Under the pieces are notes generated by a model, which saw only the letters and a list, made by a program, of their open reading frames with translations, did not search any database and had not been told where the DNA came from. This document shows, piece by piece, positions 6,443-45,325 of a DNA stretch of 64,000 bases (within the stretch, counting starts at the first letter, position 1; each line of letters starts with the position of its first letter). Origin of the DNA: Rhodocyclales bacterium (GTDB taxonomy: Bacteria; Pseudomonadota; Gammaproteobacteria; Burkholderiales; Rhodocyclaceae); contig JACOUN010000101.1 of the NCBI GenBank assembly GCA_016177805.1, positions 1 through 64,000 of the forward strand. Reading direction: 5' to 3'. Both the position numbers and the translations under genes were made by a program.

Positions 6443-6454
6443 TCTTGTACTCCC

Positions 6455-10515: not shown

Positions 10516-12290
10516 CAGCCCTGTCCCTCTCCGTCGCGTTGGTCGAGGATCACCTTGACGAGCAGAATCTTCTCCACCGAATCGCCCAGTTCGCGGTGGA
10601 TGTCGTCGATCAATTCGTCCGAAACGTCACCCGCCTCAAAACGAGTCCGAAAACCTTCCAGCATCGCCTGCGCCCGCCCGCCGATGGTCTCGCGTTTACC
10701 AAAGGTGTTCATCGTGATCTTGTTGATCGAGGCACCCAGCGTGTTGTAGTCGGGATGGGTGATCTGCACCTTGCCGTTATCGGGGTCGCGGTCGAACAGC
10801 AGCACCTTGTTCGGCGTGCAATCTGAGATCAGGAAGGGCGAATGCGTAGTGATCAGCATTTCCTGGCTGACGCCTTCAGGGCCACCCAGGCACTCGCGCA
10901 GCCGGCTGATAAAGCTGGCGCGCCAGTCCGGGTTGAAATGGGTTTCCGGCTCGTCGAGCAGGAACAGACTGTTGGTACCCCGGAACAACAGGCACAGGCC
11001 GAGGCTGTGCAGCAACTGGTGCTCACCATCCGACAGTTCCTTCAGCATCATCGGCTGCGCCACGCCTTGCTTGCTGAAGCGCACAGACTTAAAGCGCATG
11101 ATGCGTTGATCGGATGCCAGCGTCGGCACGGTCTCGCTGACGTAGTGGCTCGTCGAGGTGTACAGGTCGGTCTTGAGCGCTTCGCTGACCGGGTACAAAT
11201 TCAAGGTCAGCAGCACCTGCAGCGCCTGAAACAGGGCCAAGGCTGAGTCGTCGAAATTGTCGCGAAACGCTCTCCTGGTGGCCTCATTGACCCAATAGTC
11301 CAGGATCAAGGTATCGGTGGCCTCATCGTCGAAATGGAGCGTGGCGCAACGTTTCAGCTTCTCGATGATCGAGGTCCGTTCGTCACCGTCCAATCCCCTC
11401 AGCACCTTGAGCCGGTAGTCGCCCGTTTCCGGATCGAGATAAATCGCTTCGTTATCAGCGAAGCGACCGTCCCGAGTCTCGGTTGGCAAGACATACTCGC
11501 CCGAAGTGAACACTTCGACCTGCTGGCGTGTTAATGGAATACTGCGCCGCAAGATGATGCGGAACTCCTTCAACGCCTTGATGCCGACGTCCTCGCGGAA
11601 TGCCCGGAGCGCGACCGCATCCGCATCCTGAAAAAGCAAATTGCATATCAGCATGGCCTGGCTGAAGCCGTTGTCGAGGAAAGCCAGCCGCGTGTCCGGG
11701 CGGCCCGGGTATTGCGATTGGGTGCGCAGACTGTTCCAGTATTCATCCAACTGCACGAAGCGCGTCTTAAAGAACGGCAGGCTGAGAATTTCATTCTCGC
11801 CCGACGAATAGCCCAACACATACTGCGGCAGCAGTATGTCGGCATGGCCGCCCTTGAAGAGTTCATTCGCGTCCGTATCGAAGTCGCCCTGGTTCTCCCA
11901 CTGGAAGCGCACCGACTCGCCGGGGTGCTTCCAAACGCGAACGTTCGCCCATTCCGGGCCACCGGAATGACAGTACTCCACAGGCACGCGAATCAGGTAT
12001 TCCAGCTCGAAGGCGGCGGGTGAAGAATCAAGCGTTTCGTCTTGCAGCGCCTCCGGCAGAAAGTTGCGGCGCACACGCTGAATCTCCAATTGGAAGAAGA
12101 TCGCGGCCAAGACCTCCAGCAGGTTGGATTTTCCGCTACCGTTGCGCCCGGCGCAGACGAACGGGGCGAGGTCATCGTCCCTAGCCAATTCGTCCTGCAA
12201 GCTCCACTCGGTGCGGAAGTAGTGCTCGAAATCGCGGGGCAGGCTGCGAAAGCCATCGGGATCAGTGATTTTGAGGCGAAGCAGCTTCAT
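10515..12290 (-). CDS. AAA/ABC-type ATPase associated with restriction system (PtuA-like)
   Basis: A 591-residue SMC/RecF-like ATPase without an obvious nuclease domain of its own. Walker A is GRNGSGKSN at 48-56, the ABC-type signature LSDGEHQ is at 419-425, Walker B LFLLDEPETH is at 442-451 and the H-loop TTHSPF is at 481-486. The 350-residue insert between Walker A and the signature would form the helical lid. Such ATPases act as sensors or motors for an effector nuclease; the effector is most likely the HNH protein encoded immediately downstream with a one-base overlap. It starts only 3 bp after the hsdS stop. The alternative is an OLD-family ATPase, but no TOPRIM domain is visible. Confidence 0.82.
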   Translation of the reverse strand: MKLLRLKITDPDGFRSLPRDFEHYFRTEWSLQDELARDDDLAPFVCAGRNGSGKSNLLEVLAAIFFQLEIQRVRRNFLPEALQDETLDSSPAAFELEYLIRVPVEYCHSGGPEWANVRVWKHPGESVRFQWENQGDFDTDANELFKGGHADILLPQYVLGYSSGENEILSLPFFKTRFVQLDEYWNSLRTQSQYPGRPDTRLAFLDNGFSQAMLICNLLFQDADAVALRAFREDVGIKALKEFRIILRRSIPLTRQQVEVFTSGEYVLPTETRDGRFADNEAIYLDPETGDYRLKVLRGLDGDERTSIIEKLKRCATLHFDDEATDTLILDYWVNEATRRAFRDNFDDSALALFQALQVLLTLNLYPVSEALKTDLYTSTSHYVSETVPTLASDQRIMRFKSVRFSKQGVAQPMMLKELSDGEHQLLHSLGLCLLFRGTNSLFLLDEPETHFNPDWRASFISRLRECLGGPEGVSQEMLITTHSPFLISDCTPNKVLLFDRDPDNGKVQITHPDYNTLGASINKITMNTFGKRETIGGRAQAMLEGFRTRFEAGDVSDELIDDIHRELGDSVEKILLVKVILDQRDGEGQG

Positions 12291-12293
12291 CTG

Positions 12294-13883
12294 CTAGAAC
12301 GCGCCCCAATCGGAAGGGCGCCTTTGCAGTGACACTCGGTTGCTCGCGTCATCAAATGTCTGCATCAAGACGCCATCCTCCAGGGCAGAAAAAACCAGAT
12401 TCTTCAGTTCATCGTAGTCAGTCAGCTCCAATGCCGACGTTTCGCCTTCGGTTTCCAGCCGTGTTTCCTGCAGTGTCTGCCAAGCTGATTCAAGGAATTC
12501 ACGAGAACCCAAGGCGATATCGGGCGACGAATTTGTCAGATAGCGATTGAACCAGTTGGCGAGCAGCTCACTACGGCTCTCTGGCGGAGCGCTTTGCATG
12601 AGATGGTTGACCACTTCCGTCGGCGTCACCATGCCCTCGCGCAGCGCCAATGGTTCGGTGGCAGGTACTTGATCGACCGGTCGCGGTACCCGAGATAAAT
12701 CCAGTTCGCCCTTGAAGGCTTTTTGGCTGAGGGCACCGTAGAGGTTTTCGAGATCCTTGAGACTTTGCTGGTATCGAGATTTCAGCTGATCGACACATGT
12801 GTGTATGTCGGCGAAACGGCTTTGCAGGCCAATGGGCGGGCGCTTGATCTTGGTTCCCTTGATGATTCCCAAGTTAAGGCCGCTCATGATCGCGCCCCGA
12901 TTCTTGCTGGCGAACTGCTTGAGGACAAACGGGCTGGAGTGGATCGAGTAAGACAAGAACAACGGGTTCGCGACTTCTCGATCCAACGTAATGGCAGCAA
13001 GGTGCTTGGTATTGATGGCCAGGGGAATGTCGTCCGGGATGACCGTCGAGCGCCCGATAGTGCCCATAATCGTGACGATCACGTCACCCGGAAAGATTCG
13101 ATAGCTTTGTAGCTCTTGGTACTTGGCGTTGGAGATGAAACGGCGTTCGCCCCAGGCGAATCGATTCTGTACGGCGTTGTCGATGCCGAGCACCGCAACA
13201 TCGCCTTCCGCAGTGAACTCGCTGTGCAGCAAATTCGAGCCAAACGGCCCCGTTCGCATCGCACCTTTGTGCTTGGCTGCCAGCTCACGAATCTCGACAA
13301 GCGGCCACACCCCATAGTCAGGGTTCGTCGGCCCAAACATCTCCAGAAACACGCTCGTGAGCAGGTCGTCGAGCTCCTGGAGTTGCTGCTTGCGCTGGGC
13401 GATCAGCCCTTCCACCTTGCCGAGCAGATGAGCAATGCGGATTTGATCGTCAAGTTCCGGAAAGGGGATTTCAATTTCAGCCACTTGTGCTGGGCTGGCC
13501 CGAAGAAGTGATCCTCCCACGCCCTTCACAGTCTTCATGAATTGGCGATGAAAACCGTTTGAAATCAAGAAAAGCCGTAGGTACTCGGGGCAGAAATCGT
13601 CGCCCCGGAATTGGATCCATTCGCCAGATGCAACCTGTCGCTTGTCGCTGCGCTCCGGGACGATCCAGCAACGCCGGATATGAGGAACTATTTTTGACAG
13701 CAAGACATCCCGCGGCTCGACGATCTTCTTGGACGAACCAATTCTTTCTCCCTCGACAACCTCTGGACTACCTTGGTCGAATGCGGGAATGCTTAAAAGC
13801 TCAAATACCTCATTTTTGAACTTGGAGGGATCGACTGAGCCGCCCCGTTTCACCATGAATTCATTGAGTTTGCGGAACCTCAT
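12294..13883 (-). CDS. hsdS: Type I restriction-modification specificity subunit HsdS
   Basis: Determines the DNA site recognised by the type I enzyme. The 529-residue protein has two target recognition domains: residues about 1-150, ending in the conserved helix LDDQIRIAHLLGKVEGLIAQ, and about 190-380, ending in the second spacer helix around LKSRYQQSLKDLENLYGALSQKAFKGELDLS. After that comes an extra segment of about 130 residues (from VPATEPLALREG to the end) beyond the normal HsdS length; it is acidic and helical and unrecognised. The start overlaps the hsdM stop as ATGA. The first TRD starts abruptly without the usual leader, so the N-terminus may be short. Confidence 0.93.
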   Translation of the reverse strand: MRFRKLNEFMVKRGGSVDPSKFKNEVFELLSIPAFDQGSPEVVEGERIGSSKKIVEPRDVLLSKIVPHIRRCWIVPERSDKRQVASGEWIQFRGDDFCPEYLRLFLISNGFHRQFMKTVKGVGGSLLRASPAQVAEIEIPFPELDDQIRIAHLLGKVEGLIAQRKQQLQELDDLLTSVFLEMFGPTNPDYGVWPLVEIRELAAKHKGAMRTGPFGSNLLHSEFTAEGDVAVLGIDNAVQNRFAWGERRFISNAKYQELQSYRIFPGDVIVTIMGTIGRSTVIPDDIPLAINTKHLAAITLDREVANPLFLSYSIHSSPFVLKQFASKNRGAIMSGLNLGIIKGTKIKRPPIGLQSRFADIHTCVDQLKSRYQQSLKDLENLYGALSQKAFKGELDLSRVPRPVDQVPATEPLALREGMVTPTEVVNHLMQSAPPESRSELLANWFNRYLTNSSPDIALGSREFLESAWQTLQETRLETEGETSALELTDYDELKNLVFSALEDGVLMQTFDDASNRVSLQRRPSDWGAF

Positions 13884-15550
13884 TCCACCATCCCCTTCAA
13901 CTCAAGCAACTCCCGCACGATACCCCCCTGAAACTTGGCCAGATCGGCCTTGCTCACATCACCCACCTCAGACTGAATCAGTCGATCCAGTATCACGCCC
14001 GGCGGGTCGTACTTCATTTCTTCGAACACGTCTTCACGGTAGCGCGAAAGCGAGAGGTCGTAGTTGTGCTTCTCATCGGCGATCTCGGTGCGCGGCACCA
14101 TGAAGCACTGAGCGGTGCGGTCGGTGTCGGTCTCGATTTTGCGGGCGTGGTAGCGGTCAACGATGTCCTGCAGGTCTCCGCAGCCTTCCTGCTTGCTACG
14201 CTTATCGTCGAGGCTGTAACCGTCGGCGCGCATATCGTAGAACCACACATGCTCGGTGGCGGGTTTGGTCACCTTGTCCTGGGGCCCCCAGACCTTGGTG
14301 AACAACAGGATGGCGGTGGCGACGCCGGCATAGGGCTTGAAGACGCCGCTGGGCAGGGCGATGACGGCCTTTAGGTCGCAGCACTCGACGAGCTGCTTGC
14401 GCAGCGCCTTGAAAGCGCCGGCGGAACCGAACAGCACGCCTTGCGGCACGATGACACCTGCGGTGCCACCCTTCTTGAGCAGGCGGTAGATGTTCTCGAC
14501 GAAAAGCAGCTCGGTCTTGGTGGTGCCGAGGCTGAGCTTGTCGTTGATGTCGCTCTTGTCGATGCTGCCGGTGAAGGGCGGGTTGGCCATCACGATGTCG
14601 TATTCGGCTTCCTGGTTGTAGCTCTTTGACAGGGTGTCCTTGTAGTCGATGTGCGGTTCGTCGATACCGTGCATCATCAGGTTCATGAGCCCGAGGCGCA
14701 CCATGGTGGCGTCGATGTCGTAGCCGTAAAGGGATTCCTGCAGAACAGTCTGGGCCTTGGCGGTGAGGCCGGCGGCCACCGAAGTGCGCACGAAGCCGTC
14801 TTCGTCGGGCGTGAGGTCTTTGGCGCCGGCCTTCTTCGCCAGCCCGGTAACGATGTACTGATAGGCGCCGAGCAGGAAGCCGCCGGAGCCGCAGGCCGGG
14901 TCGGCAATCCTGTGGCCCAGTTGGGGCTGAACCAACTCGGCGATGAGTTTGATGATGTGGCGCGGCGTACGGAACTGACCGTTCTTGCCGGCGGTGGCGA
15001 TCTCGGACAGCAGCATTTCATAGACATCGCCCTGGATGTCCTGGAAGGCCTGGCCTTTTTCCTGCGAGTCCTTCTCCATCACGTCGAAGATCTCGTCGAT
15101 GATCTTCACTGCCTCCACCAGCAGCGCTGGCTTGGAAATGATGAACACGGCGTTCTTCATGTGGTGGGTGAAGTTGGATTCGCTGCCGTTCAAGTCCTTG
15201 AGGAAAGGAAAGACCTTGGCCTGTACATGGAGCAGCATCTCTTCGGCCGGCATGCGTTTGAACGCGCTCCAGCGCAGGCTGGGCTTTGGAATCTCGAATT
15301 GCTTCTGCGCCTTCTTGGTTTTGTCGCGGTGCTCGGGCGGCACCCATTTGCCAACGAACTTGGAGGTGTATTTTTCTCCGGTCCATTCGGCATCGGCCTG
15401 GCGCTTGAGGTCCAGTTCGTCGAGACGCTTCATGAACAGCAGGTAGGTGATCTGCTCGATGGCGGTGAGCGGGTTGCTGATGCCGCCGGACCAGAATTTG
15501 TTCCAAAGCTGGTCGATCTTGCCTTTGAGTTCGGGATTGTTCTGCAGCAT
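13880..15550 (-). CDS. hsdM: Type I restriction-modification DNA methyltransferase HsdM
   Basis: A 556-residue N6-adenine methyltransferase that protects host sites together with HsdS. It has the helical N-terminal HsdM domain (IDQLWNKFWSGGI, ITYLLFMKRLDELD). The GQFRTPRHII lead-in precedes the SAM-binding motif DPACGSGGFL at 217-226, and the catalytic motif IV is NPPF at 323-326 (DIVMANPPFTGSIDKSD). It overlaps hsdS by 4 bp and follows dinD by 66 bp on the same strand. Nothing appears broken. Confidence 0.96.
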   Translation of the reverse strand: MLQNNPELKGKIDQLWNKFWSGGISNPLTAIEQITYLLFMKRLDELDLKRQADAEWTGEKYTSKFVGKWVPPEHRDKTKKAQKQFEIPKPSLRWSAFKRMPAEEMLLHVQAKVFPFLKDLNGSESNFTHHMKNAVFIISKPALLVEAVKIIDEIFDVMEKDSQEKGQAFQDIQGDVYEMLLSEIATAGKNGQFRTPRHIIKLIAELVQPQLGHRIADPACGSGGFLLGAYQYIVTGLAKKAGAKDLTPDEDGFVRTSVAAGLTAKAQTVLQESLYGYDIDATMVRLGLMNLMMHGIDEPHIDYKDTLSKSYNQEAEYDIVMANPPFTGSIDKSDINDKLSLGTTKTELLFVENIYRLLKKGGTAGVIVPQGVLFGSAGAFKALRKQLVECCDLKAVIALPSGVFKPYAGVATAILLFTKVWGPQDKVTKPATEHVWFYDMRADGYSLDDKRSKQEGCGDLQDIVDRYHARKIETDTDRTAQCFMVPRTEIADEKHNYDLSLSRYREDVFEEMKYDPPGVILDRLIQSEVGDVSKADLAKFQGGIVRELLELKGMVE

Positions 15551-15616
15551 GGTGGGGCGATCCTTGGTCGGCAGCGTGACCCGCCGGCGGATTGGGGTTG
15601 TGGCGCGCTTGGCGGC

Positions 15617-16474
15617 CTATTTCTTTGGCGAAGGGAGGATGCCGGATTGTCGGACGAGCTTCTTTTCGTCGGCCTTGACGCGTCGCTCCAGCTTCTTGAT
15701 GTCTTCTTCCGGCGGCAGTTGTTCTGGCTTGATGCCGCGCTGGCCCAGCATGTCGCGCACGCTCTCGTTGTTCTGCACATGCTCGCGGGTGATGGCATGC
15801 TCGCCTTGCAGGTTATCCTGGCTGACGTTGTGGTTGGTGATTTCGGTGGCCAGGTTTTTGGCGGCGATGGTCAGCGTGGGCAGGAAGTCGGCCAGCGGGC
15901 GGGTCTTGGTGATGCCGAAGCGGTCCTTCATGGCCTGGGTGGTGTGACCGCCGAACAGTGCCGCGTCGCCCCTGGAACGGATGCGGGCGAAGCCACTATC
16001 GTCGACCCCGCGCTCGTAGATGTTCTGGGATAACGTCTTTTCGGACTCACGCAGGCGCTCGCGGGCATCCAGCCGAGCCTGCAGGCGCATGCGATCTTCG
16101 ATCAGCTCCTGCTTGCGCGTCTGGATGGCGAAGTAGCTCTGAGCGAAAGCGATGGGTTCCTTGCGTGGGTCGCCGTTCTGCGCAACGAGGTAGCAGGCGT
16201 AACGGGTGAGCATGAAGTCGTCGACAGGCCGCTGGCCGCCCTTGCCGATCTCGATCATTTTCGTGACGCCACGAAAATGATCGTCAACCGGATAACCCGT
16301 TGTTTCGCAAGACTCGATGGCGCGCTGAATCGCCGTCTGAAAGTTCTCCCATCGAGCGTATCCGAGCGGCTCCATGAGATCGCGGGCGAACCAGAACTCG
16401 ATGTTCTCGTCAGGTGTGCGCTGACTGAGGGCGTCAAATCGTTCTTTCATCAGTTGGATGGCACTGGTTTGCAT
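15617..16474 (-). CDS. dinD: DNA damage-inducible protein D homologue
   Basis: A 285-residue relative of E. coli DinD. Recognisable stretches are ENIEFWFARDLMEPLGYARW, QNGDPRKEPIAFAQSYFAIQTRKQELI, GDAALFGGHTTQAMKDRFGI and EQLPPEEDIKKLERR near the C-terminus, all in the DinD order. E. coli DinD is an SOS-induced protein reported to inhibit RecA filament activities. It sits between hsdR and hsdM on the same strand, with gaps of 29 and 66 bp, so it is part of the restriction operon. I saw no clear LexA box (CTG-N10-CAG) directly upstream, so independent SOS control is not supported here. Confidence 0.9.
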   Translation of the reverse strand: MQTSAIQLMKERFDALSQRTPDENIEFWFARDLMEPLGYARWENFQTAIQRAIESCETTGYPVDDHFRGVTKMIEIGKGGQRPVDDFMLTRYACYLVAQNGDPRKEPIAFAQSYFAIQTRKQELIEDRMRLQARLDARERLRESEKTLSQNIYERGVDDSGFARIRSRGDAALFGGHTTQAMKDRFGITKTRPLADFLPTLTIAAKNLATEITNHNVSQDNLQGEHAITREHVQNNESVRDMLGQRGIKPEQLPPEEDIKKLERRVKADEKKLVRQSGILPSPKK

Positions 16475-34680: not shown

Positions 34681-35208
34681 TCAACCGCTCCCCAGTTCCG
34701 GAAACAACACCTCGGTAAACCCGAAGCGACTCAGGTCGTGCATGCGCATCGGGTACAGGATGCCGCTGAGGTGGTCGCATTCGTGTTGCACGACGCGGGC
34801 GTGGAAGCCCTCTGCGGTGCGGTCGATGGGGTCGCCTCCGGGGGTGAAGCCGCGGTAGTGGATGCGGGTGTAGCGGGGGACGACGCCGCGCAGGCCGGGG
34901 ACGGAGAGACAGCCCTCCCAGCCGTCTTCGGTTGCTTCGGTAAGCGGGGTGAGGACCGGGTTGACGAGCACGGTGCGGGGCACCGGGGGTGCGTCCGGAT
35001 AGCGTTCGCTGCGCTCGAAGCCGAACAGGACGACCTGCAGGCCGACGCCGATCTGCGGGGCGGCGATGCCGACGCCGCCGTGGGCGGTCATGGTGTCGTG
35101 GAGATCGGCGATGAGCCCGGCCAGTTCGGGCGTGCCGAAGGCTGGCACCGGGGCGGCGGGTTGCAGCAGGCGCGGGTCGCCCATGCGCAGGATGGAGCGG
35201 ACGGTCAT
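34681..35208 (-). CDS. def: Peptide deformylase
   Basis: A 175-residue metalloenzyme that removes the formyl group from nascent proteins. All three motifs are intact: [11 protein letters not shown] (44-54), EGCLS (98-102, metal ligand C100) and QHECDH (141-146, metal ligands H142 and H146, catalytic E143). It is the last gene of the minus-strand selenium run, starting 96 bp after the second permease. The position next to an importer is unusual for def, so this may be a second deformylase copy in the genome. Confidence 0.95.
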
Positions 35209-35304
35209 GGCAGGCTCATGTCGGCAAGGTGTCGGAGTCGTGGAGTTTCGGGGAATTGGAGGGACGCCCGAGGCGGCGTGGCGCTGTACGCTGCGGCATG
35301 GCCT

Positions 35305-36111
35305 TCACCGTTCCATCCAGGCGCGCAGGCGGTCGCTCAGGGCGTCGACCACCAGCACCAGCACGAACATCGCGATCAGCACCGTGGCGGCCTGTGCCTG
35401 CTGGAAGATCGACAGGTGGTAGTAGAGCATCTGGCCCAGCCCGCCGGCGCCGACGAAGCCCAGCACCGCCGCCATGCGGATGTTCATTTCCAGCCGGTAC
35501 AGGCCGTAGGCCACCGACTGCGGCCAGACGCTGGGCAGCGTGCCGTAGACGAAGGCCACCACCGCGCCGCAGCCAGCATCGACCAGGCTTTGTTCGGGCT
35601 GCGGCGGGGCGTTCTCGATGGCTTCGGCGAACAGCCGGCCGAGCACTCCGGTAGTGTGCAACGCCAGTGCCAGCACCCCGGCAAACGGGCCGAGGCCGGC
35701 AGCCAGCACCATCAGCGTGGCCCACACCAGTTCGGGCACGCTGCGCAGCAGGTTGAGCACGAAGCGCGCCAGGCGGGCGGCGCCGGCGCCATGCCGCCCG
35801 GACGCCGGCAGCGCGCACAGCAGGCCGGCAACCCCGGCGAGCAGCGTGCCGACCACCGCCACCGCGAAGGTCTGCAGGGCGCCCCAGGCGGTCTTGCGCA
35901 AGAAGCCGGGGGCGAGATCGGGCGGGAAGAACGAGGCCGCGAAGCGCCCGATGCTGGTGGCGGCCTCATGCGAGAACAGGGCCGGAAAGTCGATGTCGAG
36001 GTAGGCGAAGCTCGCCACCACCGCCGCAACCAGCAACGCGCTGGTGAGCACGCAGCTCAGGCAGAAATCGATCGCGCCGCGCGGCTCGCAGGGTTCGCGC
36101 GTGCCGCTCAT
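35305..36111 (-). CDS. PhnE-type ABC permease 2 (putative selenium oxyanion importer)
   Basis: A 268-residue inner-membrane permease with about six helices (SALLVAAVVASFAYLDIDF, VAVVGTLLAGVAGLLCALPA, LVWATLMVLAAGLGPFAGVL, TVLIAMFVLVLVVDAL). The cytoplasmic coupling loop VLGFVGAGGLGQMLYYHL is the EAA-type motif of PhnE proteins. It overlaps permease 1 as ATGA. Two PhnE-like genes plus one ATPase gene imply a heterodimeric channel. The substrate is assigned from the adjacent binding protein and the selD/sen genes. Confidence 0.87.
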   Translation of the reverse strand: MSGTREPCEPRGAIDFCLSCVLTSALLVAAVVASFAYLDIDFPALFSHEAATSIGRFAASFFPPDLAPGFLRKTAWGALQTFAVAVVGTLLAGVAGLLCALPASGRHGAGAARLARFVLNLLRSVPELVWATLMVLAAGLGPFAGVLALALHTTGVLGRLFAEAIENAPPQPEQSLVDAGCGAVVAFVYGTLPSVWPQSVAYGLYRLEMNIRMAAVLGFVGAGGLGQMLYYHLSIFQQAQAATVLIAMFVLVLVVDALSDRLRAWMER

Positions 36112-36923
36112 GCGAGCGCCCTGCGCAGGGTGGCGCTCAGAGCGTCGGCGAACAGCACCAGCGCGAGGAAGACCAGCAGGATGGTCGACGCCTCGCCGCC
36201 GTTGAGCATGCGCATCGATTGGTCCATCAGTTGCCCGAGCCCGCCCGCGCCGACAAAGCCCATGATCACCGAGGCGCGCACCGCGCATTCCCAGCGATAG
36301 ACGGTGTACGAGGTCAGCTCCTGCGCGGCGTTGGGCAGCAGGCCGTAGGCGAGCGCGGCGAAACGTCCGCCGCCGGCTTCGAGGATCGCGCGGGCCGGGC
36401 GGGTGTCGGTTGATTCGAGTATTTCGGTATAGACCTTGCCCAGCATCCCGCCGTAGGTGATGGCCAGTGCCAGCACCCCGGCGGCCGGCCCCAGGCCCAG
36501 CACGCGCACGAACATCAGCGCCCAGACGATTTCGGGTATCGCCCGCAGGAACGCGAGCACCGCCCGCCCGCCGGCGCGCACCACCTCGCCGCCCAGGCGC
36601 CCCGGCCCAGGACCGATCCGCGACACCGCCAGCGCGCGGGCGCACAGGATCGCGAGCGGCGCCGCCAGCCACAGCGCAAGCGCGATGCCGGCAGTGGCGA
36701 TCGCGATGGTTTCGAGCGTGGCCCTGAGCAGCAGGCCCAGAAATTCTGGCGAGCTGGCTGGGGGCAGGAAGCCGGCGAGAAAACCGCCCATGACCCGCAG
36801 GTTGGCGGGCTCGAACAACGCCCACGGGCGGAACTCGGCCAGCACCAGAAGCGGCCACAGCAGCGCCAGTGCGACCAGGGTCCAGCCCAGCCGTGCCCGC
36901 GCGGCGGGGTCGCGATTACTCAA
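36108..36923 (-). CDS. PhnE-type ABC permease 1 (putative selenium oxyanion importer)
   Basis: A 271-residue permease related to its neighbour. It has helices around LGWTLVALALLWPLLVLAEF, TIAIATAGIALALWLAAPLA and VWALMFVRVLGLGPAAGVLA, and the coupling loop VIMGFVGAGGLGQLMDQSM. A 116-bp gap separates it from the ATPase gene upstream. It overlaps permease 2 by 4 bp. Both permeases have the conserved GxxGxGGLGQ coupling loop, so neither looks degenerate. Confidence 0.87.
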   Translation of the reverse strand: MSNRDPAARARLGWTLVALALLWPLLVLAEFRPWALFEPANLRVMGGFLAGFLPPASSPEFLGLLLRATLETIAIATAGIALALWLAAPLAILCARALAVSRIGPGPGRLGGEVVRAGGRAVLAFLRAIPEIVWALMFVRVLGLGPAAGVLALAITYGGMLGKVYTEILESTDTRPARAILEAGGGRFAALAYGLLPNAAQELTSYTVYRWECAVRASVIMGFVGAGGLGQLMDQSMRMLNGGEASTILLVFLALVLFADALSATLRRALA

Positions 36924-37039
36924 CCTGGATTCCTCGGCTGGACGCGCTCACCCGGTCGGTGAGCCAAAAAATAGCCCGCAATGTCAGTACTCATGCGCCA
37001 TCCAAACAAGCAACAAGCGGTCAACCGAGGAATTCAGGT

Positions 37040-37849
37040 TCAATTGCAGCTACTCCTGGCGCGCGCGGCGCAGGTCGCCGCGTCGCGGGCCTGCACTGGC
37101 AACGTGTCGCCCTCGGCGGCATAGAGTTCGTGCAGCATGGCTTCGGTGACGCGGTCGGCCGGCAGGTCGAACGCCACCTCGCCGTCGCGCAGGCCGACGA
37201 TGCGCGGAAACCACTTGAGCGCGAGGTCGACCGCGTGCAGCGACGCGAACAGGCTGGCGCCGCGACGCACCGATTCTTCCACCAGCTCGCCCAGCGCCGC
37301 GTCGGCGAGCGCTGGATCGAGCGCGGACACCGGCTCGTCGGCAAGAATCAGGTCGGGCTGCTGATAGAGCACGCGGGCGATGCCGACACGCTGCAACTGC
37401 CCGCCCGAGAGGCGGTCGCATCGCTCGAACAGGCGGTCGGCCAGATCGAAGCGCGCCAGCGTCGCCTGGGCACCGGCGATATCGACCGGATAGAGCAGCG
37501 ACAGCAGCCCCTTCCAGGCCGGCCAGCGACCGAGCCGCCCGGCGTGGATCGCCGTGACCACGCGCTGGCGCGGCGGAATCGGCGGGCTCTGGTGGATCGT
37601 GCCGACGCGGGTGCGCAAACGCCGCAGCGCCCCGGCCGACAAGCGCCAGGGATTCGCATCGAGGATTTCGAGCCGCCCCTCGCTCGGGCGCAGCGCGGTG
37701 CCGAGCAGGCGGATCAGACTGGTCTTGCCGGCGCCCGACGGCCCGATCACCGCCACCCGCTCACCGCGGTCGGCGCGCAACGAAATCCGCCCCAGGGCGC
37801 GAAAGCCGTTGTCGTGGATCAGCCCCACGCCTTCAAGTTCGAATCCCAT
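37040..37849 (-). CDS. PhnC-type ABC ATPase (putative selenium oxyanion importer)
   Basis: A 269-residue ATPase that energises the two PhnE-like permeases. Walker A is GPSGAGKT at 36-43, the Q-loop is in VGTIHQSPP, the signature LSGGQ is at 147-151 and Walker B LILADEP is at 167-173 with SALDPA following. All catalytic elements are intact. It begins 30 bp after the binding-protein gene. Related ATPases serve phosphonate and phosphite importers; here the neighbours argue for selenium. Confidence 0.9.
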
Positions 37850-37879
37850 ACGCTCGCTCCGATGATCGGGGGATCATGC

Positions 37880-38743
37880 CTACTTGATCAGCCCGGCGGC
37901 ACGCGCGGCGCGCTCGATGCCGTCGTAGTTGCCAGGGTGGGTGGTGACGAATTTCGAGGCGCGCTGCAGCGCCATCAGCTCGCGCTGCGCCGGATCGGCC
38001 GGATCGAGCTTGAGGAAGGCGTCGCGGATCTTGTCGCGCAGCGCCGGATCGAGGCCGGGCCGCACGGTCCAGTTGTAGTCGAAATACGGCGGCGTGGTGG
38101 CGATGACCCTGACCCGCCCGGCGTTGGCATCGCCCTTTTCGAGCAGCTTGTCCATCACCGAGGCATTGAGCACGCCGGCCCCGGCGCGTCCGGAGGCAAC
38201 GAACGCAACAGTCGCATCGTGTGCGCCGGAGAACGCGATCCGGGCAAAGTCACGCTCCGGATCGATGCCTTGCCGCAGCAGGAAGTCGCGCGGCATCAGA
38301 TGCCCCGAGGTCGAGGACGGCGAGCCGAAGGCGAAGGTGCTGCCCTTGAGTTCGGCAAGCGATTTGACCGGGCTGTCGGCCGGCACGATGAACTTGCTGG
38401 TGAACGCCGTGTCTTCGACGCGCTGCACGATGGGCAGCGCCTCGCCGTTGGTGCGCAGCCGGGCCTGGACGAAGGTGAATCCGCCCAGCCAGGCCAGATC
38501 GATCTTCTTCGCCGCCAGCCCTTCGACCACGGCGGCGTAGTCGCTGACCGGGGTGAACACCACCTTGAGGCCGGTCTCCCTTTCGAGATAATCACCGAGC
38601 GGCTTGAACTTGCGCTGCAACTCGGTCGGCGCCTCGTCCGGAATCGCCGATACGCGCAGGACCTGGGCGTGGACCGCGAAGCTGGCGAGTAACGGCGCGA
38701 GCACTAGCGCGCAGCGGGCAATCAGGCGGGGCAAGGGATACAT
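37880..38743 (-). CDS. PhnD-like periplasmic binding protein, putative selenate importer
   Basis: A 287-residue periplasmic protein. The start at 38743 gives a signal peptide MYPLPRLIARCALVLAPLLA then SFAVHAQ. The mature part follows the PhnD/PtxB pattern: SAIPDEAPTELQRKFKPLGD, KKIDLAWLGGFTFVQARLRT, STFAFGSPSSTSGHLMPRDF and FVASGRAGAGVLNASVMDKL. A PhnD subfamily found beside selD in selenium-using bacteria has been annotated as a putative selenate-binding protein. Its location 50 bp after the selD fusion gene is the reason I prefer selenium over phosphonate. Ligand specificity remains inference. Confidence 0.85.
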   Translation of the reverse strand: MYPLPRLIARCALVLAPLLASFAVHAQVLRVSAIPDEAPTELQRKFKPLGDYLERETGLKVVFTPVSDYAAVVEGLAAKKIDLAWLGGFTFVQARLRTNGEALPIVQRVEDTAFTSKFIVPADSPVKSLAELKGSTFAFGSPSSTSGHLMPRDFLLRQGIDPERDFARIAFSGAHDATVAFVASGRAGAGVLNASVMDKLLEKGDANAGRVRVIATTPPYFDYNWTVRPGLDPALRDKIRDAFLKLDPADPAQRELMALQRASKFVTTHPGNYDGIERAARAAGLIK

Positions 38744-38793
38744 GGCGTTCTGCTCGGGTGGTCGGGTGGGCTGGCATGGGACGGCGGCCTGGG

Positions 38794-41073
38794 TCACGAC
38801 AGCACCCGGATCGGCTCGATCGCGTCGCCCTGGGCAAGCACGCGGCCGATCCGCGCGGTTCGCGCATAGCCCAGCGCGCGCAGCGCGGCAACGCAGGCGT
38901 CGGCCCGGTCGGCAGGCACGCTGGCGAGCAGGCCGCCAGCGGTCTGCGGGTCGAACAATAGCGCATAGGCGGGGTGACGCGAAGCCTCGGGCTGGTTGCG
39001 CAACGCCCGGCGCAGCCGCACGTTGGCCGGCTGTAGCGAACTGAGCAAGCCGGCGGCCGCCATTTCGGCGGCGCCGTCGAGCAGCGGCAAGGCGTTCAGG
39101 TCGATCTCGGCGTCGACGCCCGAGGGTCGCGTCATCTCGACCAGATGCCCGAGCAGGCCGAAGCCGGTCAGGTCGGTGCAGGCCGTCACGCCGTGCGCGA
39201 CCAGGCAGGGCACGGCCGCCTGGTTGGAAACCTGCATCGACGCGAGCGCCGCGTCGATCCAGCGCCCGCGCGCCGCCAGCCGCGCGTGTGCCGCGAACAG
39301 CGTGCCGGTGCCGATCGGCTTGGTCAGGATCAGCACGTCACCGGCGCGCATGCCGCCCTTGCGCAGCACCCCGCCCAGGCGCTCGTCGATCAGCCCGTTG
39401 ATCGCGAAGCCCAGCGCCAGCTCTTGCCCCTCGCCGGTGTGGCCGCCGACCAGCGCGCAGCCGGCCGCGTTCAGCACTTCAACCGCGCCGGCCATCATCT
39501 GGAACACCGTATCCTCGACCTTGCTTTCCAGCCCCGGCGGCACCGTGGCGATCGCGGTCGCCGACTGCGCCTCGCCACCCATCGCGAAGATGTCGCCGAG
39601 CGCGTGATTGGCGGCGATGCGGCCAAACACCCACGGGTCGTCGATGAAGGCGCGGAAGAAATCGACGCTATGCACCAGCGCCTGACCCGGCGGCACGCGC
39701 AGCACCGCCGCGTCGTCGGGCGCGTGCAGGCCGATCAGCACGTCGTCGCGCTCGACCGGATGGATTCCGGCCAGTGCCCGCGACAGCACCGTCGCGCCAA
39801 CCTTGGCGCCGCACCCGCCGCAGCGCATCGCGATCGCCGAAATCGCCTGCGCCTGCTCGGCCGCTTCGAGCGGCACCGGGGTCGCGGACGATGTCGCGGC
39901 GCTCGCCTGCATCGGCGGAAAATCGCTGAAACGCCGCATGAAACGCCGATCGATCCAGTCCTTCCAGCGCCACACCCAGTCACCGCGCGCAAAAAACCAG
40001 CCGCGCGAAGCAACCGCGTGGCGCTCGCCCGTGCTGATCAGCGCAAGCCAGCGGCGCTGCGGCCGGTAGGGGCGCAAGGGTTGGCGCAGCACCGAGCGGC
40101 GCAGGTTGTCAGCCAGCGGCGGGCCCATGCGCACCGCGAACACCCCGGCCTTTTCGAGCGGCTGGCCGTTCATGGCCGCGCAGTCACCGGCGGCGAAGAT
40201 CTGCGCATCGGTTTCGCTTTGCAGCGTGTCGCGCACGCGGATGAAGCCGTCGGCGTCGAGCGCCAGCCCGGTGTCGCGCAGCCATGGCGCGCCGCCCGCC
40301 TGGGTCACCCAGACGATCTCGTCGGCATCGAGCCACTGACCATCGCGCATCTGCAGCCGCCCGGCCGCGACCTGGGTCACTTCGGCGTTGCAGTGCAGCT
40401 CGACCCCGCGCTCGACCAGCACCCGCGTAAAGGTGCGCCGCACTGCGGCGTTGTGGGTCGGCAGAATGACGGGGCCGGCCGAGAACAGGTGAAAACGCAA
40501 CTCGTCCGGGTCGCGCCCGAGCGCCACCCGCTCGCCACGCAGGCGATGGCGCATCGCCAGGGTCAGTTCCACCCCGCCGGCACCGGCGCCGACCACCGCG
40601 ATGGTGGTCGGCCCGGCGTGGCAACGCACGCGTTCGAGCAGCGCCAGCCAGCGCTCGTTGAAGCGGCGGATCGGCTTGACCGGCAGCGCGTGCTCGGCCG
40701 CCCCGGCCACCGACGCGAGCCGTGGCGTGGAGCCGATGTTGATCGACAGTACGTCGTAGGGCACCGGCGGACGGGTGCGGCACAGCACCTTGCGCGCGGC
40801 CCGGTCGATGCCGGTGACCTCGTCGCGGTAATAGCGCGCGCCCGCGTATCCGGCCAGGCGCCGCAGGTCGATATGCACGTCGTCGTATCCGTAGTGCCCC
40901 GCGATGTAGCCCGGCAGCATGCCCGAGTAGGGCGTGTCGGTGTCGGTGCAGATCACCGTCAGGCGCACGCCCGGCACGGGGTCCATCGCGAACATGCGCA
41001 GCACCCCCACATGGCTGTGACCGCCGCCGACCAGAACAATGTCGCGCACGATCGCGGTCGCCGCTACCTGCAT
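38794..41073 (-). CDS. selD: NADH-dehydrogenase-like flavoprotein fused to selenide, water dikinase (SenC/SelD)
   Basis: A 759-residue two-domain protein. Residues 1-385 are a pyridine-nucleotide/FAD oxidoreductase: FAD loop LVGGGHSH (14-21), NAD loop VGAGAGGVE (161-169), and AAGDCAAMNG (294-303). Residues about 410-759 are SelD, which makes selenophosphate from selenide and ATP. The active-site loop RCGGCGAKVG holds C421 and K424, spaced as C17 and K20 of E. coli SelD, and VHSVDFFRAF, ALGDIFAMGG, VGGHTGEG follow. The flavoprotein part may reduce a selenium species to feed SelD. It lies between senB (51 bp) and the importer (50 bp), the position of senC. Confidence 0.93.
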   Translation of the reverse strand: MQVAATAIVRDIVLVGGGHSHVGVLRMFAMDPVPGVRLTVICTDTDTPYSGMLPGYIAGHYGYDDVHIDLRRLAGYAGARYYRDEVTGIDRAARKVLCRTRPPVPYDVLSINIGSTPRLASVAGAAEHALPVKPIRRFNERWLALLERVRCHAGPTTIAVVGAGAGGVELTLAMRHRLRGERVALGRDPDELRFHLFSAGPVILPTHNAAVRRTFTRVLVERGVELHCNAEVTQVAAGRLQMRDGQWLDADEIVWVTQAGGAPWLRDTGLALDADGFIRVRDTLQSETDAQIFAAGDCAAMNGQPLEKAGVFAVRMGPPLADNLRRSVLRQPLRPYRPQRRWLALISTGERHAVASRGWFFARGDWVWRWKDWIDRRFMRRFSDFPPMQASAATSSATPVPLEAAEQAQAISAIAMRCGGCGAKVGATVLSRALAGIHPVERDDVLIGLHAPDDAAVLRVPPGQALVHSVDFFRAFIDDPWVFGRIAANHALGDIFAMGGEAQSATAIATVPPGLESKVEDTVFQMMAGAVEVLNAAGCALVGGHTGEGQELALGFAINGLIDERLGGVLRKGGMRAGDVLILTKPIGTGTLFAAHARLAARGRWIDAALASMQVSNQAAVPCLVAHGVTACTDLTGFGLLGHLVEMTRPSGVDAEIDLNALPLLDGAAEMAAAGLLSSLQPANVRLRRALRNQPEASRHPAYALLFDPQTAGGLLASVPADRADACVAALRALGYARTARIGRVLAQGDAIEPIRVLS

Positions 41074-41100
41074 TCAGACTCCTCCGTCGCGTTGCTTCAG

Positions 41101-41140
41101 GTTCAACCCGGTTTCAACCGGGTTTCAACCGGGTTTCAAC
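41101..41140. repeat. Short tandem 11-bp repeat at the senB 3' end
   Basis: GTTTCAACCGG occurs in tandem at 41111-41121 and 41122-41132, with a partial third copy at 41133-41140 and a degenerate one at 41101-41110. The third partial copy encodes the last residues of SenB, and the SenB stop (41125-41127) falls within the array. Because 11 is not a multiple of 3, a gain or loss of one unit would change the C-terminus of SenB. Confidence 0.85.
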
Positions 41141-42105
41141 ATCTCGCCGACCAGCCCATGCAGTGCCGCGCGCTCGCGTTGCGGCGCGAACAGCGGTGCC
41201 CGCGCACAACACTGCGCGACCAGCCGCCGCATGAAATCGTCGCCCGGCACGCGCTGCGACTGGCGACAGCGCCGCAGCAGCGCTGCCAGCGCCTCGGCAT
41301 CGTCCCACGAAAAATAGCCGGAGTAGTCGCCACCGAGCATGCCGACGTTGCCTTCGATGCGGGACGCCAGCACCGGCGTGCCGCTCGTCACCGCCTCCAT
41401 CACCACATGCGCGCCGCCTTCCATGCGGCTGGCGTGAACCAGCAGGTGCGCGCGCTGGATGCGGCGGCGCACCTGCTCGTGCGCAAGCCCGCCCAGCCAG
41501 CGGTAGTTCGGCACCGCCGCCATGGTCGCGCGCGCGGCCTCGCCCAGCACCGGATCGAGCGGCTCACCGATGTGGTCGATGCGGATGTCGTCGCAACCGG
41601 AGAGCAGACGCGCCGCCGCAAACAGCGTTTGCGGCGACTTCTCGTCGCGCAGGTGGCCGACCATCACCGCGCGCAGGTGATGGGTCGATTTGTCCAGCGT
41701 CTGGCGGGGCGGGGTGGACTGGAAGATCACCCGCGCCTTGTGGCGCAGTTCCGCCGGCAGCGAGCGCGGCGCGCACTCCTGCAACACCACCAGCGCCTGC
41801 GCCAGCTCCAGCGACCGGCGCGCCGAGGCGTCGGTGTCGATGTCGCGATACAGGTCGGTGCCGGTCAGCACCACCGCCAGGCCCGCGCCCGGATGCGCCC
41901 CGGCCCAGGCCGCGATCGCATCGGCCGAGCGGCGCGCGTGCAGCGCGATCATCGCGACGTCGCCGCCCGCCAGTGCATCGGGCCAGGCCTTGACGATGCG
42001 CGCGCGCGCCACCCCCGCGAGGTGGTGCCGCCAGCGCCGCGCCGTCTGCCAGTTGCCGTTGTTGGCATCGCGCAGCGCGGGGCTGACGATCACCACTTGC
42101 GGCAT
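41125..42105 (-). CDS. senB: Selenosugar synthase (glycosyltransferase), selenoneine biosynthesis
   Basis: A 326-residue GT-B glycosyltransferase that joins selenophosphate to a nucleotide sugar to give a selenosugar in the selenoneine pathway (reaction from the published SenB family). N-terminal VIVSPALRDANNGNWQTARR and LAVVLTGTDLYRDI, then the C-terminal GT4-type donor site HASRMEGGAHVVMEAVTSGT and SRIEGNVGMLGGDYSGYF, match that family. The ATG at 42105 is used; ATG 42123 is also in frame. The gene lies head to head with senA and directly upstream of the selD fusion; that pairing is what separates it from an ordinary glycosyltransferase. Confidence 0.88.
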   Translation of the reverse strand: MPQVVIVSPALRDANNGNWQTARRWRHHLAGVARARIVKAWPDALAGGDVAMIALHARRSADAIAAWAGAHPGAGLAVVLTGTDLYRDIDTDASARRSLELAQALVVLQECAPRSLPAELRHKARVIFQSTPPRQTLDKSTHHLRAVMVGHLRDEKSPQTLFAAARLLSGCDDIRIDHIGEPLDPVLGEAARATMAAVPNYRWLGGLAHEQVRRRIQRAHLLVHASRMEGGAHVVMEAVTSGTPVLASRIEGNVGMLGGDYSGYFSWDDAEALAALLRRCRQSQRVPGDDFMRRLVAQCCARAPLFAPQRERAALHGLVGEMLKPG

Positions 42106-42140
42106 ACTCGGAATATCGCCCATTGCCTGCCATCCCGCCC

Positions 42141-43298
42141 ATGACTACCGACCATGCCGCCGCCGAAACCGCACGCCGGGGCGACCGCCTCGCGCTTGCC
42201 ACCGCCCTTGCCGACAGCCGGGCGCGCACGCTCGCGCTGCTCGAAGCGTACACCACCGCGCTCGGCCCCGCGCTCGTGGTGCCCTGCACGCCGCAGTTCA
42301 ATCCGCCACTGTGGGAGGCCGGGCACATCGGATGGTTCCAGGATTACTGGATCGCGCGCAACCAGCAGCGCGCGCTCGGCACGGCCTGCGACCCCGACCA
42401 CGCGCGGCCCGCCGGACGCATGCCGGGAGCCGACGCGCGGTACAACTCGAGCCGGGTCGCGCACGACACCCGCTGGCAACTCGACCTGCCCGAGCTGACC
42501 GCCACGCGCGCCTACCTGGCCGACGCGCTGGCGGATACGCTGGCGCTGCTCGCGGACACGGCGGAAACCGACGCCGACCTGTATTTCTTCCGCCTCGCGC
42601 TGTTCCACGAGGACATGCATGGCGAGGCCGGCATCTACATGGCGCAAGCGCTCGACATCGCGCTGCCCGACACCTTGCTCGCGCCGGAGCAGACCGTCAC
42701 GCAACAGCAGGCGTTGCGCGTCCCGGCGCGAACCTGGACCCTCGGCCGGGACGGCGACGGGTTCGCCTTCGACAACGAGCTGGCGCCGCACCCAGTGACG
42801 GTGCCGGCCTTCGAGATCGACGCCGAGGTACTCAGTTGGGGCCGCTATCTGCCGTTCGTCGAACAGACCGGCAACGCACCCCCACGCTACCTGCGCCATG
42901 AGGATGGACGCTGGCGGCAATGCCGCTTCGGCCAGTGGCACGACCTGTCGCTCGACGCTCCGGCGGTGCATCTGCGCCTGGATGAAGCCGAAGCCTGGTG
43001 CCGCTGGGCCGGCCGCCGCCTGCCCGGCGAAGCCGAATGGGAAATCGCCGCACTGACGCAGCCGCGATTTCGCTGGGGCCAGGTGTGGGAATGGACCGCC
43101 AGCCGCTTCCAGCCCTACCCCGGCTTCATCGCCCACCCCTACCGCGACTACTCCGCCCCGTGGTTCGGCGACCGCTACGTGCTGCGCGGCGCGAGCCGCG
43201 CGACCAGTCCGCGCATGGCGCATCCACGCTACCGCAACTTCTTCACCCCCGAACGCAACGACCTGCACTGCGGCTTTCGCAGTTGCGCACGCGACTAG
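42141..43298 (+). CDS. senA: Selenoneine synthase (EgtB-like)
   Basis: A 385-residue non-haem iron enzyme related to ergothioneine EgtB. It couples the selenosugar to hercynine to make selenoneine (published SenA family). The N-terminal DinB-like domain carries the three iron-ligand histidines expected for this fold: H62 (WEAGHIGWFQDYW), and H156 and H160 (FHEDMH). The C-terminal formylglycine-generating-enzyme-like domain runs LDEAEAWCRWAGRRLPGEAE, then GQVWEWTASRFQPYPGF and RNFFTPERNDLHCGFRSC. The TAG stop lies inside the terminal repeat of a MITE. Assignment as SenA rather than EgtB rests on the adjacent senB and selD. No egtD is visible nearby. Confidence 0.9.
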   Translation: MTTDHAAAETARRGDRLALATALADSRARTLALLEAYTTALGPALVVPCTPQFNPPLWEAGHIGWFQDYWIARNQQRALGTACDPDHARPAGRMPGADARYNSSRVAHDTRWQLDLPELTATRAYLADALADTLALLADTAETDADLYFFRLALFHEDMHGEAGIYMAQALDIALPDTLLAPEQTVTQQQALRVPARTWTLGRDGDGFAFDNELAPHPVTVPAFEIDAEVLSWGRYLPFVEQTGNAPPRYLRHEDGRWRQCRFGQWHDLSLDAPAVHLRLDEAEAWCRWAGRRLPGEAEWEIAALTQPRFRWGQVWEWTASRFQPYPGFIAHPYRDYSAPWFGDRYVLRGASRATSPRMAHPRYRNFFTPERNDLHCGFRSCARD

Positions 43299-43503: not shown

Positions 43504-44127
43504 TCAACGCGCCCAGGCGATGCCGAACGCGAGGCCGACCAGAACCACGCCGGTCACGCGCTCGACCTTGCCCACATGCGCCATGAAGCGCCGTACCACC
43601 GGCGGATGCCCGGCCGCCCGTGCGATGCACAGATCCCACAGCAGCACGGCGCAGAACATCCACGCGCCATAGGCCAGTTGCGCGGCCATGGGGGTGTCGC
43701 GCTCGAACCCCAGCGAAAACAGGCTGGCGTAGAAAAGCGAGTTCTTCGGGTTGAGTATCCCCGAAAGGAACCCGGTGTGGCATTCCCGCCACCAACCACC
43801 CGGCGTTTGCTCCTTGGCAACGACATCCAGCGCCGGGGTGTCGCCCCGCACGTTGAGGAAACGCCAGCCCAGCCACGCAAGGTAGGCGCACCCAGCCCAT
43901 TTGAGCAACGCGAACAGGCCCGCGACTTCCTGCACCACCGCGACACCGCTGATCGCCAGCGTGATGTACACCCCGTTGGCGAGCGCGATGCCCACGCACA
44001 CGCCGCTGGCGACGCGGACGCCGTTGACCACGGCGCTGCGTACGATCAGAAAGAAATCCGGACCGGGACTGAGCAGCGCCAGAAAATGCGCACCCGCGAT
44101 CACCAGGAATTGCTGCCACACCGCCAT
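43504..44127 (-). CDS. LysE/RhtB-family exporter
   Basis: A 207-residue inner-membrane exporter of amino acids or related small molecules. The start at 44127 (MAVWQQFLVIAGAHFLALLS) follows GGAG with good spacing. Family marks are ALLSPGPDFFLIVRSAV and HTGFLSGILNPKNSLFYASL, with six predicted helices. It is encoded next to the AraC-type regulator (45 bp downstream of it), which probably controls it. Its 3' end is separated from senA by a MITE. A role in exporting a selenium metabolite is possible but there is no evidence for it. Confidence 0.9.
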   Translation of the reverse strand: MAVWQQFLVIAGAHFLALLSPGPDFFLIVRSAVVNGVRVASGVCVGIALANGVYITLAISGVAVVQEVAGLFALLKWAGCAYLAWLGWRFLNVRGDTPALDVVAKEQTPGGWWRECHTGFLSGILNPKNSLFYASLFSLGFERDTPMAAQLAYGAWMFCAVLLWDLCIARAAGHPPVVRRFMAHVGKVERVTGVVLVGLAFGIAWAR

Positions 44128-44172
44128 GCCGTTACTCCACTCTTGTTGCAATGAGCGGAGCTTCGCAGGGTG

Positions 44173-45030
44173 TCAGGATTTGGTATTGAACGAAATTGCG
44201 CCGCCGACACGGCGGTATTGACCGGGCGTGACCGCCACGCGCTGCTTGAACGCGCGCTGGAAGTGGCTCTGATCGGAAAAACCGAGTTGCAGCGCGGCCT
44301 CGGCCAGCGGCACACCCTGATCGAGCAGATGGCGCGCGCGACGGATACGCAGATCGATCTGCCAGGCATGCGGCGTCATGCCGACGGCGCGGCTGAACGC
44401 CCGCACGAAGTGGTAGCGGCTCATGCCGGCGGCCGCCGCAAGCTCATGCAGGGGCAACGCTTCGGCGCAGCGCGCCGCAATCATCGCCTGCGCGTCTTGC
44501 AGTCGATCGCGCAACCCGGCGAGTTCCGCACAGGGCGCACGATGGAGCGCACGCGACCACGCCCGCCCGAAGATCTCGCCGACAAACAGCAGAACCGTCG
44601 CCTCCTTGTCCTCGATCGAATGCTCGCCGAACAGGCAGGCGTTGAGGCGGGTAAGCCGCTCATGTATCCGGCGCGGCGCCACCCCGGACGGCAACCGGTT
44701 GAGCACCACCGCATCGAACGGCCCCATTTCGCCGACCACGCCACGCACCCAGTCCTCGTCGAGGTAGAGCATCTGGTAGCTCCAGCGTCCGTCCTTCTCG
44801 GGATTGCACGCGTGCACTTCGCCAGCCGGAATCAACACCACATCGCCGCGCGTCAGGCGCTGCCGCCGGGCACCCCGGCTGAACACGCTTTGCCCGTCGT
44901 CGACGGCCCCGAGCGACAACGTGGCATGCGCGTGCGGCGCATAACACGCCGCGCTGTCATTGGCGCGGCGGCTCTCGACGAACGGCAGGGCGGGTGAGCG
45001 CCAGAAGTGGTGAACGGGTTTTCGCGACAT
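44173..45030 (-). CDS. AraC-family regulator with cupin sensor domain
   Basis: A 285-residue regulator. The N-terminal AraC_binding cupin has CYAPHAHATLSLGAVDDGQS and LTRGDVVLIPAGEVHACNPE. The C-terminal HTH pair is LPLHELAAAAGMSRYHFVRA, TPHAWQIDLRIRRARHLLDQ and AALQLGFSDQSHFQRAFKQR. The start at 45030 is chosen by domain fit; it lacks a clear ribosome site. This AraC type is often found upstream of LysE exporters and activates them in response to the exported amino acid. Confidence 0.9.
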   Translation of the reverse strand: MSRKPVHHFWRSPALPFVESRRANDSAACYAPHAHATLSLGAVDDGQSVFSRGARRQRLTRGDVVLIPAGEVHACNPEKDGRWSYQMLYLDEDWVRGVVGEMGPFDAVVLNRLPSGVAPRRIHERLTRLNACLFGEHSIEDKEATVLLFVGEIFGRAWSRALHRAPCAELAGLRDRLQDAQAMIAARCAEALPLHELAAAAGMSRYHFVRAFSRAVGMTPHAWQIDLRIRRARHLLDQGVPLAEAALQLGFSDQSHFQRAFKQRVAVTPGQYRRVGGAISFNTKS

Positions 45031-45325
45031 GCAAGGAGTATAGCCGCGCAACGCGCTTGTCCGCGCGACCGGTGTACCGGACTGCGCTTGCGCGTCGTCC
45101 GGCGTCACAGTGAATGGCTCTGCCGTTGTTGCCGGCACATCCTCATGGTGCAGGGTCGTCTCACTGACCACTTATTGCCTTATAGCTGACCGATTGTTCC
45201 TCTTCGTCATTTCTGCATACCTCCCAATTTCTGCCTCCAGCACCCGGCTCGTTCTCGTTTTCCCTAATTCCTTCGTCATTATCAGGGCACTAGTATCCGG
45301 TCACGAACCATCACAGGGGGATCAG

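Follow-up and report, generated by a model that had tools for sequence, protein, structure and literature searches.

The pathway to selenoneine in Variovorax paradoxus is reportedly due to Kayrouz et al. in 2022. The sen cluster of this species consists of senA, senB and senC (PMC9814287; likewise the accessible portions of PMC10891094 and PMC10903977). According to a 2026 review, prokaryotes have as yet no identified transport system that is specific for selenium and of high affinity (PMC13188914), and the portion available of PMC2432076 deals with another selenium trait and has little bearing here. We analysed a 64,000-nucleotide stretch of DNA from a Rhodocyclales bacterium (assembly GCA_016177805.1, contig JACOUN010000101.1; contig C18 of genome G000 in our numbering, and hereafter the window) and found in it a genuine selenoneine locus of the known type, with an ATP-binding cassette (ABC) importer and a SelD fusion attached. 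The locus resembles the V. paradoxus cluster in encoding SenA and SenB together with a SelD and in having hercynine as its predicted acceptor, and it differs from that cluster in that SelD is fused to a flavoprotein, egtD lies elsewhere in the genome, and an importer of the TIGR04553 family takes part in the minus-strand gene series.

The selenoneine genes of the window

The preliminary description of this DNA had recognised senA and senB head to head, a selD fusion and a four-gene importer of the PhnD/C/E type, and this layout is borne out by reading frames that are intact in all seven genes, senA through permease 2, and by the family scores. Curated NCBIfam cut-offs were passed by five of the seven products, the ATPase and permease 1 falling below. 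The genes are as follows (scores in bits, with the family cut-off):

42141-43298, plus strand: senA, selenoneine synthase (NF041186, 481 against 420; also by tree)
41125-42123, minus strand: senB, selenosugar synthase (TIGR04348, 443 against 300)
38794-41073, minus strand: senC-type fusion of an Ndh-like flavoprotein and SelD (TIGR03169, 513 against 310; TIGR00476, 288 against 125)
37880-38743, minus strand: periplasmic binding protein of the TIGR04553 family (350 against 250)
37040-37849, minus strand: ABC importer ATPase, PhnC-like (PF00005; TIGR02315, 195, under 266.1)
36108-36923, minus strand: ABC importer permease 1, PhnE-like, with a TTG start (PF00528; TIGR01097, 202, under 216.7)
35305-36111, minus strand: ABC importer permease 2, PhnE-like (PF00528 and TIGR01097, the latter 227 against 216.7, both on 35305-36072)

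SenA matched a solved selenoneine synthase (8ryz) at 1.6e-118. Since SenA and EgtB are homologous, and SenA scored 199 bits on the EgtB model TIGR03440, we considered whether it might itself be an EgtB, in which case the locus would make ergothioneine or another sulfur compound. This identity was rejected and is extremely improbable, because the score falls well below the model's cut-off of 360, the SenA equivalog is passed, SenB is over its cut-off in 40 of the 42 SenA genomes in our set (the host and 199 relatives, n=200), and 45 SenA-type proteins separated in a tree from 40 EgtB-type proteins with a Shimodaira–Hasegawa-like approximate likelihood ratio (SH-aLRT) support of 97, the window protein standing among the SenA as had been anticipated. 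The 85 rows of this tree comprise, as SenA, the window protein, proteins from 43 other places over the cut-off and one from G194 (379 bits, below it), and, as EgtB-type, a subset of the below-cut-off matches. Histidines H62, H156 and H160 are present in the window SenA and invariant in 14 SenA; by analogy with EgtB, from which we take their role to be that of iron ligands, they are likely the metal-ligand histidines of SenA. SenB, in turn, matched a solved SenB-type selenium glycosyltransferase (8k5u; phmmer, 8e-127) and keeps the EGGAHV motif (residue 235) and the lysine of KSPQ (residue 162), the motif and lysine being named in the accessible text of PMC10891094. The TIGR04348 and TIGR00476 scores listed above uphold the SenB and SelD identities proposed earlier. 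The genome as a whole holds SenA, a senB adjoining senA, a selD adjoining senB, and egtD. Family membership leaves us highly confident of the predicted SenA/SenB/SelD chemistry.

The SelD adjoining senB is the C-terminal selenophosphate synthetase domain of a protein with an N-terminal Ndh-like flavoprotein domain. Its SelD active site contains CxxC (C418/C421) and K424, the flavoprotein half has C42 and C98, and all five residues are the same in every one of the 23 full-length fusions compared. The fusion is the sole SelD over the cut-off in the host genome, where the other match reached 68 bits against 125. Elsewhere in the set, SelD genes with one in-frame TGA occur in at least six genomes (G125, G165, G174, G113, G066 and G132) and probably encode a selenocysteine-containing SelD.

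As to layout, senA and senB are back to back and divergent, with 17 nucleotides (nt) between their start codons. The genes had been described as lying all on the minus strand and as forming a single operon; senA is on the plus strand and diverges from the rest, so that neither statement holds. Gaps within the minus-strand series are -4, 116, 30, 50 and 51 nt, the first 4 nt of permease 2 being shared with the end of permease 1 and the fusion and senB being 51 nt apart. The binding protein has an ATG start followed by a signal-like N-terminus, its frame being open as far upstream as an alternative GTG start at 38797. The locus had further been taken to begin at 34681, which would include a peptide deformylase gene (34681-35208) that is apparently no part of it and that we rejected, no match to it being found in the other loci compared. 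Past the 3′ end of senA, positions 43504-45171 hold genes for a LysE-type exporter and an AraC-type regulator, both on the minus strand; the exporter was likewise rejected as a component, its best match in the compared loci outside the window being one LysE at 50 bits.

Hercynine, selenocysteine and the proposed pathway

The host genome comprises 3.48 Mb in 133 contigs and is 91% complete. It carries egtD on contig C73 (G000:C73:9067-10008; 378 bits against 290.9), with no EgtB beside it, and the EgtB model search of this 91% complete genome returned only the SenA locus itself. The preliminary description, finding no egtD nearby, had hercynine coming from elsewhere or being imported; the need for import fell away because egtD is present in the genome, and import as the only source was rejected. 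Across the 42 SenA genomes, egtD was over the cut-off in 41, the remaining one (G149) having a 257-bit egtD piece at a contig start, and an EgtB-type match (about 190-420 bits) was not seen, among the matches listed, in 29, weaker and longer matches of about 120-172 bits, OvoA-like in look, not being counted as EgtB. These 29 genomes suggest that selenoneine is often an independent product rather than a by-product of ergothioneine synthesis.

A search of the host genome for selenocysteine and selenouridine genes found a selenocysteine locus (L111; G000:C101, 700-9707) encoding a formate dehydrogenase, its beta subunit, FdhE, SelA (553 against 268), SelB (453 against 242) and a selenocysteine tRNA, and found no MnmH over the cut-off. 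The formate dehydrogenase gene has an in-frame TGA in the context RIUHAPTV. The importer had been thought dedicated to selenoneine; because the selenocysteine locus shares with the sen genes the sole SelD over the cut-off, neither importer nor SelD can be called so. Two or more uses should draw on selenophosphate from the fusion, and selenoneine is probably only one of two selenium products that the importer feeds. The only other genome of the same genus in the set, G001, has MnmH and SelD, no importer over the cut-off and no match to SenA, EgtD or SelA; the trait is patchy within the genus.

We consider it likely that the locus serves selenium acquisition and selenoneine synthesis, with the importer supplying both selenium products, since the fusion is the only SelD found. 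In the proposed scheme, the binding protein and ABC importer would take up selenium in the form of an oxidised anion, most probably selenite, which would be reduced to selenide, perhaps with the aid of the flavoprotein domain of the fusion, a role that we regard as possible and somewhat doubtful. The SelD domain would then make selenophosphate, SenB would place the selenium on a uridine diphosphate (UDP) sugar, and SenA would join the resulting selenosugar through a C-Se bond to hercynine, supplied by egtD on another contig, to give selenoneine; these three steps are predicted from the families. Selenophosphate from the same fusion would also supply SelA and, through it, the selenocysteine formate dehydrogenase.

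The importer family and its anion

The TIGR04553 binding protein was over the cut-off in 38 of the 200 genomes. All 38 had senA, senB, selA or mnmH over the cut-off, and the importer was found in none of the 34 genomes without these genes (Fisher 0.0005); it was more frequent with senA (18/38 importer genomes vs 24/162 others, p 4e-5) and with selA (17/38 vs 41/162, p 0.03), all of these Fisher values ignoring shared descent among related genomes and some genomes counted as lacking traits being incomplete. Importer and SenA lay, by eye, within 10 kb of each other in four of the 18 genomes having both (expected 0.1). At a distance of up to about 6 kb from the binding protein gene, sen, selD, selA or mnmH was seen by eye in nine of 38 importer loci (G000, G048, G123, G194, G019, G177, G008, G094 and G037); wider stretches were retrieved for some importer loci on account of a selA or mnmH already located in the vicinity. 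The importer adjoins sen genes in G000, G048, G123, G168 and G194, and also in G015, where it is below the cut-off and cut by a contig end; it adjoins a SelD fusion in G019, and is near selD and mnmH in G177 and G008 and near selA in G094, G037 and G183. As a control, the PhnD-type binding proteins that scored next best were examined at 20 loci, none of which had sen, selD, selA or mnmH at the thresholds used, two of these loci (L239 and L241) being short, and G015 (beside senA at the end of a contig, 164 bits across 116 columns) being left out as an apparent cut member of the family; with it, the count is 1/21. The coupling of importer and selenium genes proposed in the preliminary description is supported in that the family follows selenium genes and stands repeatedly beside sen genes, and we hold it very likely that the importer carries selenium.

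We then compared named loci, the best 80 of 587 confirmed SenA matches, chosen by likeness to the query and mostly from Betaproteobacteria by title. In 42 of the 80, at least one importer gene was located no more than about 10 kb from senA, and in 39 the binding protein was; senB was found in 71, selD in 60 (17 of them as the whole fusion) and egtD in 48. Isolates with the importer near sen genes include Hydrogenophaga pseudoflava (L172) and Aromatoleum buckelii (L155). In the window, in A. buckelii and in G048, and likewise in L056, the importer is located behind senB; in 40 of the 80 it is beyond senA, often after egtD. A fusion between senB and importer was seen, among the loci compared, only in the window. 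In the binding protein tree, the proteins of the window, G048, Aromatoleum and G019 form a group apart from most sen-linked members, and the sen-linked label takes four changes, while importer presence on the SenA tree takes 17 changes, at least 11 of them forced by strong branches and part of them perhaps explained by contig ends. Judged from these two trees, the pairing of sen genes and importer seems to have arisen on more than one occasion, either independently or through loss and renewed formation.

Some loci departed from these arrangements. In L044 (G122, 7962-15979), the cassette that comes after SenA, on the same strand, is PhnC/D/E-like but of another kind than TIGR04553; its two binding proteins score about 90 bits and have altered pocket residues. 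On the 340-kb plasmid pBPS33-1 of Hydrogenophaga sp. BPS33 (L233), senA and senB stand among chromate, mercury and arsenic genes, and no importer or selD is annotated within 9 kb. SenA over the cut-off is absent from 11 of 51 senB genomes; senB over the cut-off adjoins selD in L254 (G162, 6068-7018) and L261 (G187, 7770-8906), with no senA or egtD match in the stretch examined, and a senB below the cut-off adjoins selD in L265. Neighbours of senB without senA (a SpoU methylase, a phosphoenolpyruvate synthase-type enzyme, a MotB-type and an HDOD protein) point to nothing firm, and it is possible that the selenosugar serves another product in such genomes.

The AlphaFold model of the binding protein (mean predicted local distance difference test score, pLDDT, 86.4) has PhnD and PtxB as its closest folds, and alignment to PtxB and Prochlorococcus PhnD1 identified Y87, F132, S162-T163-S164, H193, D240 and a capping Y241. 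These pocket residues are kept in 77-79 of 79 sequences, D240 excepted, and the capping tyrosine in 77, counts that include the two L044 rows (about 90 bits), which are not family members and were omitted from the binding protein tree. Near the capping tyrosine, positions 54 and 240 co-vary, being D54/D240 in 53/79 and E54/N240 in 24/79, and the two states may mark a ligand difference. Phosphite and selenite are both three-oxygen pyramids. According to the accessible portion of PMC5700983, equivalents of the residues listed above hold phosphite in PhnD1, and PtxB and PhnD1 prefer phosphite over phosphate and phosphonates by two to four orders of magnitude, which the authors credit in part to the cap.

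With the fold and pocket of phosphite binders, PhnD and PtxB as closest solved structures, and one of two permeases passing the PhnE cut-off, the importer might be thought to carry phosphite, phosphonate or another phosphorus compound and to adjoin the sen genes by chance or for unrelated reasons. We regard this as quite improbable, given that the binding protein (183 against 261.1) and ATPase (195 against 266.1) fail the PhnD and PhnC cut-offs, that selenium genes accompany the importer in 38/38 genomes against an importer in 0/34 genomes without them, and that sen, selD, selA or mnmH is near in several importer loci against 0/20 for the next-best PhnD-type proteins. Moreover, the 91% complete host genome gave no second PhnD-family match and no match to the carbon-phosphorus (C-P) lyase PhnJ, for which an Escherichia coli control was positive, no search having been made for phosphite dehydrogenase. 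If the importer does carry selenium, importer and fusion could still be chiefly for selenocysteine synthesis, their place beside senAB being incidental, as a selenocysteine locus sharing the genome and its only SelD, and the G019 fusion-importer series apart from senAB, would allow. The importer is, however, enriched more with senA than with selA (p 4e-5 vs p 0.03), and it occurs near senA in 42 of the 80 named loci in two arrangements, which makes a chiefly selenocysteine-related role rather improbable.

On the anion itself, the capped proteins PtxB and PhnD1 prefer three-oxygen phosphite, shaped like selenite, and the capping tyrosine is kept in 77/79 sequences, for which reason selenite is favoured over selenate. 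The name 'putative selenate', also cited in the preliminary description, is a hypothetical-equivalog label, and the pocket fits selenite better, a point weakened by 7s6g, the best fold match, a Synechococcus PhnD crystallised with phosphate. Four-oxygen anions are still allowed because of this near relative, and it is one of several observations that weigh against a selenite importer serving both selenium products. Changing the PtxB cap to alanine hardly altered phosphate binding, according to the accessible portion of PMC5700983, and the capping tyrosine would face a lone pair on selenium, unlike the P-H contact that phosphite makes. The importer is not over the cut-off in 24 of the 42 SenA genomes, and 38 of the 80 named loci have no importer gene nearby, 12 of these having less than 5 kb on the senA side, so that the importer is not essential; conversely, 20 of the 38 importer genomes have no SenA over the cut-off, from which we infer that the family serves other selenium uses too. 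With a host genome that is 91% complete, EgtB, MnmH or another SelD could be missing from the assembly, and it is possible that genome incompleteness or other ergothioneine routes explain the lack of EgtB in SenA genomes. Taking both sides together, the residues of the pocket make selenite rather than selenate the somewhat more probable ligand. Import of tetrahedral selenate and its reduction inside the cell, for which the family name and the phosphate-bound 7s6g speak, appears unlikely in view of the conserved cap, if less so than the alternatives weighed above.

Significance and comparison with described systems

We found no substrate test for TIGR04553 in the literature, nor, within partial literature coverage and with no claim of absence from print, a description of a TIGR04553 importer beside sen genes. 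We tentatively propose, as a possibility that falls a little short of an even chance, that in the TIGR04553 cassette bacteria have the specific, high-affinity selenium importer that has long been missing, that it takes up selenite through a pocket of the phosphite type put to new use and has repeatedly been coupled to selenoneine synthesis, and that many hosts with egtD and SenA and without EgtB, this one included, have selenoneine as their only hercynine-derived antioxidant. With this locus, bacterial selenium uptake gains a specific candidate that can be put to the test, and, if selenite is indeed the ligand, the current 'selenate' annotation is wrong.

Ndh-SelD fusions were described in 2008, always with CxxC, in the accessible portion of PMC2398784; domain order and CxxC match those of the fusion reported here, which differs from that account in being tied to selenoneine genes, the paper predating selenoneine biosynthesis. 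The binding protein likewise agrees with NCBIfam TIGR04553 in its score and in its place within a four-gene importer, while its pocket, unlike the family label, suggests selenite no less than selenate. With PtxB and Prochlorococcus PhnD1, as far as these are described in the accessible portion of PMC5700983, it shares the fold, the S-T-S/His oxyanion site, the aromatic residues and the capping tyrosine, whereas its cap reads Y-N-W in place of Y-H-W or Y-P-W and its host genome gave no sign of a C-P lyase.

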